A stretch of 64,000 nt of DNA from Peribacillus simplex (GTDB lineage: Bacteria > Bacillota > Bacilli > Bacillales > DSM-1321), in contig NZ_LNNH01000032.1 of the NCBI RefSeq assembly GCF_001542915.1, positions 106,938 through 170,937 on the forward strand, written 5' to 3'. Position 1 is the stretch's first letter. Each line of letters starts with the position of its first letter. A program made the translations under genes and the position numbers. Shown in pieces: positions 54,072-57,344 of the stretch. Below the pieces are notes generated by a model that was not told where the DNA came from, made no database searches, and saw only the letters and a list, made by a program, of their open reading frames with translations.

Positions 54072-54253
54072 GGTATAGATGTGTGCTGAAACAGGCAGGT
54101 CTCCTGGCTTATGATCATCACTCCCCGAACCTTCCCATCTTCATGTTTCTGAAGACAGTGGTTTATCCGGATCGCTCCCAAATACAGTTGCGGGACAGCG
54201 TCGGGCTCTAACCGACTTCCCTATTATGTAGATGAAAAAATATCAATCTACAC
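54072..54253 (-). ncRNA. Cobalamin (AdoCbl) riboswitch
   Basis: Read on the minus strand, the conserved elements appear in order: GAGCCCGACGCTGTCCCGC then AACTGTA, GGGAGCG, CCACTGTC, GGGAAGG, and the B12 box TAAGCCAGGAGACCTGCC. The outer helix is formed by GGTGTAGAT (54245-54253) and ATCTATACC (54072-54080). Downstream is an intrinsic terminator, then the five-gene valine catabolic operon. No cobalamin transport or synthesis gene is adjacent. With bound cobalamin the terminator would be expected to form. Confidence 0.93.
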
Positions 54254-54280
54254 CCGTTTCTACACGTATGAAGTTTTCCA

Positions 54281-54398: not shown

Positions 54399-55691
54399 TC
54401 AGCCTTCACTGAACGAAAAAGGCTCCATTCTTTCTTCACCAGAGAACATATCTTTAATTTTAATTTGATTATTTTTCACCTCGTTCTCTCCTATGATGAT
54501 GACATTACGAAATTTCTCTTTATTTGCTTTATCTAAGGCTTTACCGAGCCTTTTCTTTCCCATTTCATATTCCACCTTATATCCTTTATCCCTTAGGTGC
54601 CTTGCGACTAATAATGCTTGCTTTTCGGTATTTATCGGGATCACATAAAAATCCACATCAGGATTTTCCACGATATTTTCCTTCGAAGATAGTAAGGCCG
54701 TATAAATAACATCCAGACCTAATGAAATCCCCACCGTTGAAAAGCTTTCATTCGTCCCGATCAGTCCACCAATGGCATTGTCATACCTTCCGCCACTGCC
54801 AATACTTGATTTAATGGTTTTATCAGATAAAAATATCTCATAAATCGTACCAGTATATATCTCCAGCCCTCTTGCTAAAAATGGATTGAATGTACATTGC
54901 TTATCGACACCAAGGAATTCGAGATAAGATTCCAGCTCTTTTAATTCTGCTACTCCCTGCTTAATTTGTTGATTCCGTTCACTGAGAGGCTCGAAATAGC
55001 CCGAACTGGCATTATCCTCGGCGGTTATAAAGCGATTAATCGAATTGATGGTTGAAGGCAGCAGCCCTTGTTCCCTTAGCTCCACCGTAACAGCCTCCGA
55101 TCCGACTTTTTCAAGTTTATCAAGTATCAATATCACTTTATTGATCTTTTCATCTGTTGTTCCAAAAGCCTCAAGCATTCCAGCTAATAATTTTCGATTA
55201 TTATATTGGATGCTTACCTTTAAACCAAGCTTCCGGAATGCATCCAATGCCATCGTCATTAATTCCGCTTCAGCAACTTGAGATTCTATACCCACTATAT
55301 CGACGTCACATTGTGTAAATTCACGAAGCCTTCCCGTTTTTATCGGTCCATCCCTGAAAACTTTACCTATCTCATATCTTTTAAAAGGTCTCCTTATGCT
55401 TGGATTCATTGCAACTACTTTTGCAAAGGGAATAGTGAGGTCGTATCGCAGCGCCAAATCTCTTTCTCCCCTGTCTGTTAAGGTATACATTTCCTCTAAT
55501 ATTTCGGCACCCCCGCCATACTTGGAAGCTAGCAATTCCGTGTAATTTAATATCGGTGTTTCCAATGGCTTACATCCGTATTGGATAAAAACGTCTTCTA
55601 TTGTCCTTCTGATGCCTCTTCGTATCACTTCTGTATCCGGTAAATAATCTTGAGTGCCCTTTACGTTTTGGTAATCCATTTTTCTCATCAT
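54399..55691 (-). CDS. hisS: Histidine--tRNA ligase
   Basis: The 430-residue class II synthetase has motif 1 near the N-terminus, motif 2 in FKRYEIGKVFRDGPIKTGRLREFTQCDVDIVG (about 105-135), the histidine motif ARGLEIYTGTIYEIF (about 268), and motif 3 in SIGSGGRYDNAIGG. The anticodon-binding domain starts about residue 340. It differs from the canonical RGLDYYTGT enzyme and resembles the second HisRS of bacilli. TTGGAGG precedes ATG 55691. A leader with a short His-containing ORF and an attenuator-like hairpin lies just upstream. Confidence 0.92.
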   Translation of the reverse strand: MMRKMDYQNVKGTQDYLPDTEVIRRGIRRTIEDVFIQYGCKPLETPILNYTELLASKYGGGAEILEEMYTLTDRGERDLALRYDLTIPFAKVVAMNPSIRRPFKRYEIGKVFRDGPIKTGRLREFTQCDVDIVGIESQVAEAELMTMALDAFRKLGLKVSIQYNNRKLLAGMLEAFGTTDEKINKVILILDKLEKVGSEAVTVELREQGLLPSTINSINRFITAEDNASSGYFEPLSERNQQIKQGVAELKELESYLEFLGVDKQCTFNPFLARGLEIYTGTIYEIFLSDKTIKSSIGSGGRYDNAIGGLIGTNESFSTVGISLGLDVIYTALLSSKENIVENPDVDFYVIPINTEKQALLVARHLRDKGYKVEYEMGKKRLGKALDKANKEKFRNVIIIGENEVKNNQIKIKDMFSGEERMEPFSFSEG

Positions 55692-55712
55692 TCATTCCTC
55701 CAATTTTTATTA

Positions 55713-55764
55713 AAATAAAAAAACCGCACGAGATTTAAGTTTTATAACTTAATCCATGCGGTTT
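55713..55764 (-). terminator. Attenuator-type terminator in the hisS leader
   Basis: On the minus strand AAACCGCATGGATTAAGT pairs with ACTTAAATCTCGTGCGGTTT (one mismatched patch) followed by T7. It lies between the leader ORF and the hisS ribosome site, so it must be prevented for hisS to be read from upstream. Confidence 0.85.
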
Positions 55765-55815
55765 AATGATAAATAGCCTTCCTATATGCCGATTTTTAAA
55801 AATCGAATAGCAAGA

Positions 55816-55872
55816 CTACTTTATAGGATGATGTAATTGTGACAGGGAAATGCTCTTCTTAACGGACTGCAT
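55816..55872 (-). CDS. Candidate hisS leader peptide with adjacent His codons, 18 aa
   Basis: GAGGTGAACCC lies just before ATG 55872. The frame reads MQSVKKSISLSQLHHPIK and then stops, with CAT CAT codons directly before CCTATA. That CCTATA can pair with TATAGG at about 55780, while CCCATATGC at the leader start can pair with the same region (GCATATAGG), giving competing structures. The terminator follows 50 bases later. This is the layout of a translation-coupled attenuator. Bacilli usually control hisS by T-box RNAs, and no T-box sequence is seen here. Confidence 0.55.
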   Translation of the reverse strand: MQSVKKSISLSQLHHPIK

Positions 55873-56142
55873 ATGGGTTCACCTCAAATTTCCATTTAAT
55901 GTATCATACTGTAAGGGATATATCAATTCTTTTTTATTTCGTTAGTATCGTTGCCGCTGTCGGATGTCATTATTGCAAGTCCTATAGCAAAAGACTCGTC
56001 ACATCAAGCCATAACCCAACATCCAAATGGAGCAGCTGGATGCCTATCTGGATTACAGGTGCACATTGAATATGCCGAAACTCGTAACGAATAGCAAAAA
56101 TTCGAAGTTATATGGACTGTTTTAGGTTGTGCTATATACAAA
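55873..56142. other. Upstream region of the hisS leader
   Basis: About 270 bases; the transcript start for hisS should lie in 55880-55960. A plus-strand frame near 55945-56070 has no ribosome site and no recognisable product. Confidence 0.4.
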
Positions 56143-56221: not shown

Positions 56222-57334
56222 TTAGTTTTGGACGGCTTTCGTAGAATAATATTCTTCAAGGGTAATTTCGTGGCCCATGATGGTTTGGGCAATTGGTTTG
56301 CCTACATAACGAAGGTGCCATGGTTCATATTTATAACCAGTAACCGATTCCTTGCCTTTAGGGTATCGGATTATGAAGCCATGATCCGCGGCATGTGCCT
56401 GCAGCCATTTTGCTTCTTTAGTACCTCCAAAGCAATCCTCCGCCGCGCATTTACCATTTCCTCCTGTCACATCAATGGCAAGGCCCGTTTCATGCTCACT
56501 TGTTCCAGGTAATGCACTGTACGTAATTGCTTTGGCATACCCATCCCTTTTTACATAATAATCAAACAGGGCAACTTGTGTAGCATGTGATCTGTAAGCA
56601 GATACACCGAGAAGACTTATCCCCTGCCTCTTGGATTCCGCAAATAATTCACTAATGGCAACTGCTGCTTCACTGCGCATTTTTCTCTTTTCTGTCTTTT
56701 CTATGAAAGTGAACGGTATCGTCGTATACACTAAGTCTTTAGGAACATAGTTTTCTGGTAACTTATTTTTTTTATTGACTAGCACTGGTATGCTTTCAGG
56801 CTTTGCAACAACCTGAATGGCGTCAGATGAAGGATTTGATACCTTCACATATTTGCTGTTAACATAACCTGTTTGACCTTTTATGCTAACCTTTAGCCAT
56901 CCGTTTGCCTCTTTCCCGATAACTTTTAGCTTTGTGCCCTGACTAACGGTGGTTATGATTTTATTGGCAGTAGATGGACCTGTGCGGACATTCAGGTTTG
57001 CACTTGCTGTATATATTTTAGTTGCTGAAGAGTTTGATATTTTCACATATTGGCTGCTGACATAGCCTGTTTGACCTTTTAAGCTTACTTTTAGCCATCC
57101 GTTTGCCTCTTTTCCCATTACCGTTAGCTTTGTGCCTTGTTTTACGGTCGTTATGATTTTATTGGCAGTGGAAGGACCTGTGCGGACGTTCAGGTTTGCA
57201 CTTGCTGTATAGGTTACAGTGGCTGCTTTGGCTACACTTGGGGCTAACTCCTTAATGGTTGCCTGGTTAAAGCCAATTAAACCGACAAATAAAACAATGA
57301 AAGTAAGACATATTACTTTATTTCGTTTTGTCAT
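56222..57334 (-). CDS. Secreted D-alanyl-D-alanine carboxypeptidase (VanY/LdcB, M15B) with two SH3b domains
   Basis: The 370-residue protein has a signal peptide (to about residue 37), two nearly identical SH3b domains (about 40-100 and 105-170) beginning TASANLNVRTGPSTANKII, and an M15B peptidase domain. Zinc ligands are in SEHETGLAIDV and EPWHLRYVG. It trims the terminal D-Ala or D-amino acid from stem peptides. ATG 57334 is chosen because GAGGTG lies upstream; the frame begins three codons earlier. Monocistronic, with its own terminator. Confidence 0.93.
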   Translation of the reverse strand: MTKRNKVICLTFIVLFVGLIGFNQATIKELAPSVAKAATVTYTASANLNVRTGPSTANKIITTVKQGTKLTVMGKEANGWLKVSLKGQTGYVSSQYVKISNSSATKIYTASANLNVRTGPSTANKIITTVSQGTKLKVIGKEANGWLKVSIKGQTGYVNSKYVKVSNPSSDAIQVVAKPESIPVLVNKKNKLPENYVPKDLVYTTIPFTFIEKTEKRKMRSEAAVAISELFAESKRQGISLLGVSAYRSHATQVALFDYYVKRDGYAKAITYSALPGTSEHETGLAIDVTGGNGKCAAEDCFGGTKEAKWLQAHAADHGFIIRYPKGKESVTGYKYEPWHLRYVGKPIAQTIMGHEITLEEYYSTKAVQN

Positions 57335-57344
57335 ATAGAACACC

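Follow-up and report, generated by a model that had tools for sequence, protein, structure and literature searches.

In Firmicutes, aminoacyl-tRNA synthetase genes are usually controlled by T-boxes, which sense the charging of the tRNA. Leader peptides that sense an amino acid have, to our knowledge, rarely been described in these bacteria, one Bacillus example being rtpA with its Trp-codon leader peptide. With respect to histidine, Naville and Gautheret (2010) predicted that hisS* and hisZ of bacilli are preceded by a histidine leader peptide and assigned a T-box to hisS (PMC2965389). The class of histidine leaders that precede hisS* has thus already been predicted. The section of that paper devoted to the element describes a HisRS paralog, said to stem from a recent duplication, that is preceded by a short ORF containing a stretch of His codons, and gives no hairpin anatomy, spacing, antiterminator test or version with Gln codons. 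For his operons, Ashniev et al. (2022) presented candidate His attenuators in the B. cereus group, Peptostreptococcaceae and Erysipelotrichales (PMC9413887). According to the part of that work that deals with them, they precede biosynthesis operons and consist of a terminator, alternative antiterminator structures and a leader peptide in which three to five consecutive codons specify His. Tandem His codons and a terminator are also found in the enterobacterial his leader (RF00514), where the position of the ribosome is thought to set the folding (PMC9413887). Moreover, as described in the relevant parts of PMC6851288 and PMC9226507, the Bacillus tlrB and vmlR leaders involve a short uORF, pausing and a terminator; they sense antibiotics, not an amino acid, and vmlR has an antiterminator. 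The main text of PMC8632094 mentions neither hisS nor histidine, the table of PMC9437257 lists no second aminoacylating HisRS, and searches of the open-access literature on a HisRS paralog and on the rtp leader brought up nothing decisive among the papers listed.

The window (the whole stretch of 64,000 nucleotides of Peribacillus simplex DNA that was analysed) carries a leader of this kind on its minus strand, between a candidate D,D-carboxypeptidase gene (56222-57343, identity read from the frame) and a gene for a HisRS of 430 residues (54399-55691). Its features are as follows.

55898..55926, minus strand: promoter-like site, TTGATA-17-TACATT with TG ahead of the second hexamer (9/12 consensus matches)
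55879..55885, minus strand: Shine-Dalgarno sequence of the leader frame, GAGGTGA (read from the sequence and conserved in relatives)
55816..55872, minus strand: leader peptide frame, MQSVKKSISLSQLHHPIK*, 18 codons, with its ATG at 55872 and its TAG stop codon at the base of the hairpin
55828..55833, minus strand: adjacent His codons CAT CAT, probably the regulatory ones (72/79 aligned leaders have three in a row)
about 55771..55821, minus strand: conserved hairpin, UAGYCUUGCUAU...AUAGGAAGRCUA, with a G.G mismatch and the stop codon within its 5′ arm
55717..55764, minus strand: predicted intrinsic terminator, AAACCGCA...GUGCGGUUUUUUU (fold and covariation)
55697..55701, minus strand: Shine-Dalgarno sequence of the HisRS gene, GGAGG (read from the sequence)
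54399..55691, minus strand: accessory histidyl-tRNA synthetase gene hisS*, 430 aa (NF009085, 618 bits)

The earlier note had described a Shine-Dalgarno sequence, an ATG and an 18-codon frame with two adjacent CAT codons near its end, followed by a terminator ahead of the synthetase gene and lacking a T-box, and this layout is confirmed as real. In the window, the peptide ends in ...SQLHHPIK*, the two His codons being followed by Pro (CAT CAT CCT). The linker AUCAUU joins the hairpin to the terminator-like stem (55764-55721, AAACCGCA...GUGCGGUUU), which leads into seven T; GGAGG and the HisRS gene come next. The terminator is a prediction from fold and covariation and is absent from the list given by a simple consensus terminator scan. 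The minimum free energy of 55705-55905 is -47.7 kcal/mol (z -4.25), and none of 200 shuffles was equally stable. The promoter-like site at 55926-55898 is not significant alone, as five such sites occur in the 2.3-kb stretch versus 8.1 expected by shuffling. At gathering score, an Rfam search gave no T-box anywhere in the window and no other family at the leader, and no T-box is among the five Rfam matches up to E 10 within 55600-56000. The T-box covariance model RF00230 does not match the leader, yet it detects a T-box at the canonical hisS of the same genome; the His leader model RF00514 gave no match either. The sensor would be a reading frame, unlike in the T-box.

The earlier note took the gene for hisS. 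It does encode a HisRS (NCBIfam name histidine--tRNA ligase PRK12420, NF009085, cut-off 540 bits), but an accessory paralog: the P. simplex genome also holds a hisZ-like gene and a second, housekeeping HisRS, to which the accessory enzyme is 27% identical and whose gene has a T-box at its start (111 bits; L155:1927-2166, minus strand). Among solved structures, the accessory enzyme scores 217 bits with 6nhi, 191.6 bits with the eukaryotic cytoplasmic HisRS 4g84 and 126.6 bits with 1qe0, which we take to be the S. aureus HisRS. Since it is nearer to 6nhi and the eukaryotic cytoplasmic enzyme than to 1qe0, it fits poorly with a recent duplicate of the housekeeping gene, and the pattern of scores suggests a horizontal origin and perhaps a different sensitivity to inhibitors. 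The identity of 27% likewise sets the gene apart from the recent duplication referred to by Naville and Gautheret (PMC2965389). In other respects, the leader in the window, set side by side with their element through its description, is very probably the same element. What we claim as new, judged against the open-access literature, is the anatomy of the leader (its spacing and the stop codon at the base of the stem), the absent antiterminator and the Gln version.

How widely is the leader distributed? A covariance model built from the His leaders, codons included (R1), was run on 397 genomes of the order and identified 64 leaders, distributed over 63 of these genomes; 60 of the leaders immediately precede hisS* in the same orientation, at a distance of 24-389 nt. 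With presence called at E 1e-120, hisS* occurs in 61 of the 397 sampled genomes, P. simplex included, and 59 of the 61 have an R1 leader; one of the two that lack a match (L177) nevertheless has a frame with HHH. Within the genus, hisS* is present in 7 of 35 other genomes, one of which belongs to the same species. In a sample of the class (398 genomes, overlapping that of the order), five genomes match, namely P. simplex, G188 with a decayed hisS* and three more in which the leader precedes hisS*. Among 100 plasmid records, four carry HisRS relatives of 60-80% identity, and similarity to the leader was seen on one Planococcus plasmid. Although the prediction of Naville and Gautheret includes hisZ (PMC2965389), the hisZ of the P. 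simplex genome matches neither R1 nor an Rfam family. Weak matches of the genus at L123 and L125 look unrelated to the leader, and L124 is the antisense of a leader.

Four R1 matches are not located before an intact hisS* (L169, L170, L171 and L172). L170 lies, by reading, beside a decayed hisS* remnant with stops, intact copies being present in other species. At L169, a His leader (...VQLHHIN*) precedes what reads as a HAD-type gene in a genome without hisS* at E 1e-120. L171 and L172 are discussed below. As a separate observation, G417 has two hisS* copies (L178; compare L089 and L091 of Sutcliffiella horikoshii), and the match to the gene starts at residue 47, 389 nt past the leader; at L178 the early part of hisS* is in a separate frame.

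To analyze conservation, the best 80 of 317 relatives from named contigs were combined with the genome loci, giving 89 upstream regions, and removal of six repeats with identical leaders left 83 distinct leaders, with the window and its conspecific counted. The alignment of leaders from relatives that the earlier note had called for bears out its short frame and His codons, along with the hairpin: in 81 of the 83, a Shine-Dalgarno sequence is followed by a frame that has two or more His codons side by side and often ends in ...SQLHHHIK*. Among these 81, HHH is found in 75, CAT CAT CAT in 69 and GAGGTG as the Shine-Dalgarno sequence in 66. Such a frame was not found upstream of only two hisS* copies (L051 and L107). 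Upstream of L051 just the terminator end is left, with other sequence in place of the leader, which is kept at L050 on the same contig. The His codons are conserved while the first half of the peptide drifts. Using a single finder on 330-nt leaders, a Shine-Dalgarno-preceded HH frame was detected in 76/83 leaders versus 6/830 dinucleotide shuffles, and HHH in 70/83 versus 0/830; at canonical hisS or hisZ loci of the genus, the HH frame was found in none of 25 (24 genes, since L003 and L004 are one gene). The conservation of the His-codon frame is far from chance.

For codon and spacing counts, 79 distinct leaders were aligned. The His run comprises three codons in 72, two in five, four in one and five in one, amounting in total to 227 CAT and 8 CAC codons. 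The first stem base lies 15 nt from the first His codon in 70 leaders, 12 nt in eight and 13 nt in one. Moreover, the stop codon falls on the first stem base in 74 (65 TAG and 9 TAA), and the G.G mismatch of the hairpin is present in 76. The family therefore has the short, Shine-Dalgarno-preceded frame with a run of codons for the amino acid concerned that is expected of a leader-peptide attenuator, and the codons match the gene, His codons preceding HisRS and, as discussed below, Gln codons preceding the glnS operon. That a terminator separates frame and gene is predicted from the covarying stem and the T-tract.

In 54 leaders, 99.5% of the cells of both stems pair, and both partners have changed in 10 of the 17 pairs. 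None of 500 shuffles reaches any of the five covariation measures, and sliding the partner abolishes the signal. Six of the ten pairs in the hairpin are changed on both sides and four are invariant, and the terminator stem has four of seven pairs changed on both sides. In leaders with a TAA stop, the opposite arm GGCUA can become GGUUA, a compensatory change. The mutually exclusive pairings proposed in the earlier note, in which CCTATA or CCCATATGC pairs with GCATATAGG, do not share this conservation; the two conserved stems occupy separate stretches of the RNA and are both present in the fold. The CCTATA pairing arises only from the CCT ATA of P. simplex, since nearly all relatives have the third His codon there. 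Taken together, the interpretation given in the earlier note, an enterobacterial-type attenuator of a synthetase in a Gram-positive, is partly supported: a His leader-peptide layout without a T-box stands and is conserved, while the competing pairings named do not hold.

Collectively, these data point to a likely function, stated here with moderate confidence, as a ribosome-mediated attenuator of the accessory HisRS, in which stalling on the His codons would be expected to raise read-through into the gene. The codons, the spacing, the stems, the pairing with the gene and the swap from His to Gln codons, all seen in the sequence, support this. When charged His-tRNA is scarce, the ribosome would stall on the His codons. 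Judging from the geometry, with the first His codon 15 nt ahead of the hairpin, stalling there would not hinder hairpin formation, whereas on reaching the stop codon the ribosome would sit over the 5′ arm of the lower stem and block the hairpin. In this scenario, the formed hairpin would be the mark of starvation, and starvation would lead to read-through. Because the tests described below turned up no antiterminator helix in the main family, we propose, with low certainty, that the hairpin might act directly on the transcribing polymerase, by pausing or read-through, such that the terminator is spared. The conservation of the hairpin sequence, which is partly kept between the His and Gln versions, suggests either a pause or a direct effect on the polymerase. 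RNA polymerase is said to move ahead of the ribosome in B. subtilis (discussed in part of PMC9226507), and control by a leader peptide would then need a pause. In tlrB, pausing is described as bringing polymerase and ribosome into step (relevant part of PMC6851288), and in vmlR it is said to give the ribosome enough time to translate the uORF and to guard against leaky expression (same part of PMC9226507).

In a classical attenuator, stalling would instead favor an antiterminator helix that excludes the terminator; here this might be a short helix or a pseudoknot that escaped the folding tests. Antiterminators are reported for other Firmicutes his operons in the part of Ashniev et al. cited above (PMC9413887), and one divergent relative comes close. 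This locus (L177) encodes a HisRS that is 52% identical, and its frame ends in WVHHHRN in a leader at about 400-600. Between hairpin 1 and the terminator it has an extra stem that overlaps the terminator and is of the classical attenuator kind; the partial RNA folds into this antiterminator stem and the complete RNA into the terminator. Both folds are the same for both ribosome positions, so the switch is unproven by folding alone. In the main family, three tests revealed no antiterminator excluding the terminator of the his/trp type. First, the 79 leaders were folded up to the terminator loop in three states, without a ribosome and with an approximate footprint masking the RNA around either the stop codon or the first His codon, and no partner of the terminator 5′ arm exceeded a mean probability of 0.21; in the ribosome-free state, weak pairing of this arm with parts of the leader frame goes up to 0.21. 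Second, the duplex between linker and terminator arm in these leaders is no better than with permuted partners (1591 of 2000 permutations were as good). Third, scanning pairs of 12-nt windows in 46 diverse leaders gave the two known stems as the source of all the strongest pairs; the best 28 contain only two weak others (z -2.8 and -2.6), between the frame and the upper hairpin. The main family thus differs from the enterobacterial his leader, which folds into mutually exclusive stems, and from the his operon leaders. In the light of these tests we regard the classical mechanism as rather unlikely here. At the same time, the complete leader RNA of the window folds into the terminator for both masked ribosome positions, and with no antiterminator pairing the link between the position of the ribosome and termination is missing.

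Stalling could also affect translation or mRNA stability and leave termination aside, as in the leader-peptide control of some resistance genes. The Bacillus examples combine both levels, according to the parts of PMC6851288 and PMC9226507 concerned, but in this family the Shine-Dalgarno sequence of the HisRS gene lies, by its coordinates, outside both conserved stems and a terminator-like stem with a T-tract is conserved, which makes this alternative improbable.

Attenuation by a ribosome stalled at the leader codons is also supported by the codon swap that L171 and L172 show. These two loci have a like hairpin, linker and terminator, but the frames end in LQLQQQN* and IQQQQ*, and the downstream operon encodes a PUA/SAM methyltransferase and then GlnRS (TIGR00440, 725 bits). 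GlnRS was found in all 35 genomes searched in the taxonomic family of L171 and L172, and a Gln leader lies upstream in nine (L171, L172 and L209-L215). These are G244, G267, G194 (VHVQQQK*), G110 (RQQQQI*), G169 (QQQH..., with a later stop), G348 (VQFQLQR*) and the near-identical G288, G784 and G785 (VQFQRQS..., with a later stop), the last four having Gln codons that alternate with others. CAA and CAG are mixed. Thirteen other genomes of the family showed no Gln leader within about 2.2 kb upstream (in G796, beside a second, divergent glnS); 11 further genomes were covered only to about 1.5 kb, and the regions upstream in G219 and G792 were left out.

A model made from His leaders only, with the codons cut off (R3), was given seven of the nine Gln loci (L212 and L213 left out) and matched six, with 69.9, 56.6, 32.0, 29.2, 28.5 and 28.2 bits, compared with 21.2 bits for the best match outside; L211 was missed. 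R1 matches eight of the nine (again missing L211), six of these at 20-28 bits, and in the genome-wide search at E 0.05 it finds only the two strongest. The scaffold is thus common to His and Gln leaders, with firm support at two loci and weaker support at the others, and the leader codons correspond to the synthetase. With a codon-free model of His and four Gln leaders (R2; ten candidates scored per genome), the 397 genomes yielded at E 0.01 His and Gln leaders and one antisense match of a His leader. Two further weak R2 matches (E 0.004 and 0.01) look like chance, and in G348, outside the glnS region, R1 weakly matches an ordinary terminator. We did not find a Gln leader peptide before glnS in Bacillus in the accessible parts of the open-access literature, and a Shewanella paper, in the portion available, classes as a tRNA synthetase leader an RNA motif that is predicted upstream of glnS. 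It is tempting to generalize, though only tentatively, to a reprogrammable Bacillales scaffold, in which a ribosome-gated hairpin would act on RNA polymerase without an antiterminator and a change from His to Gln codons would retarget it from HisRS to the GlnRS operon.

The Gln version also bears on direct autoregulation, in which HisRS or tRNA-His would bind the hairpin and the His codons would be incidental. Such binding would account for a hairpin sequence conserved beyond pairing, including the G.G mismatch. Against it, a class I GlnRS operon has Gln codons and a related hairpin in front of it, the unpaired G.G recurs in the folds of five of the seven distinct Gln leaders, and the His runs are inexplicable by chance; we consider it very improbable. 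That the leader is a relic or hitch-hiking sequence without present function, as its position before the decayed hisS* (L170) in one genome and before an unrelated gene (L169) in another might indicate, is hardly credible given the selective conservation of codons, spacing and pairs.

Attenuation by the stalled ribosome would give one cell two HisRS genes with two different predicted sensors of tRNA-His charging, a T-box and a leader peptide. The accessory HisRS would then be a backup synthetase, made when the T-box-controlled housekeeping enzyme cannot keep tRNA-His charged. An attenuator that is widespread, conserved in sequence and naturally recoded from His to Gln would also allow a clean test of how a stalled ribosome can control termination in Firmicutes. 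Downstream of hisS* in the window, a cobalamin riboswitch (54077-54272, minus strand, 117.8 bits) is positioned between this gene and a putative valine/acyl-CoA degradation operon, in which reading of the frames suggests an acyl-CoA dehydrogenase and 3-hydroxyisobutyrate and methylmalonate-semialdehyde dehydrogenases; in the relative L034, a riboswitch is likewise downstream of hisS*.
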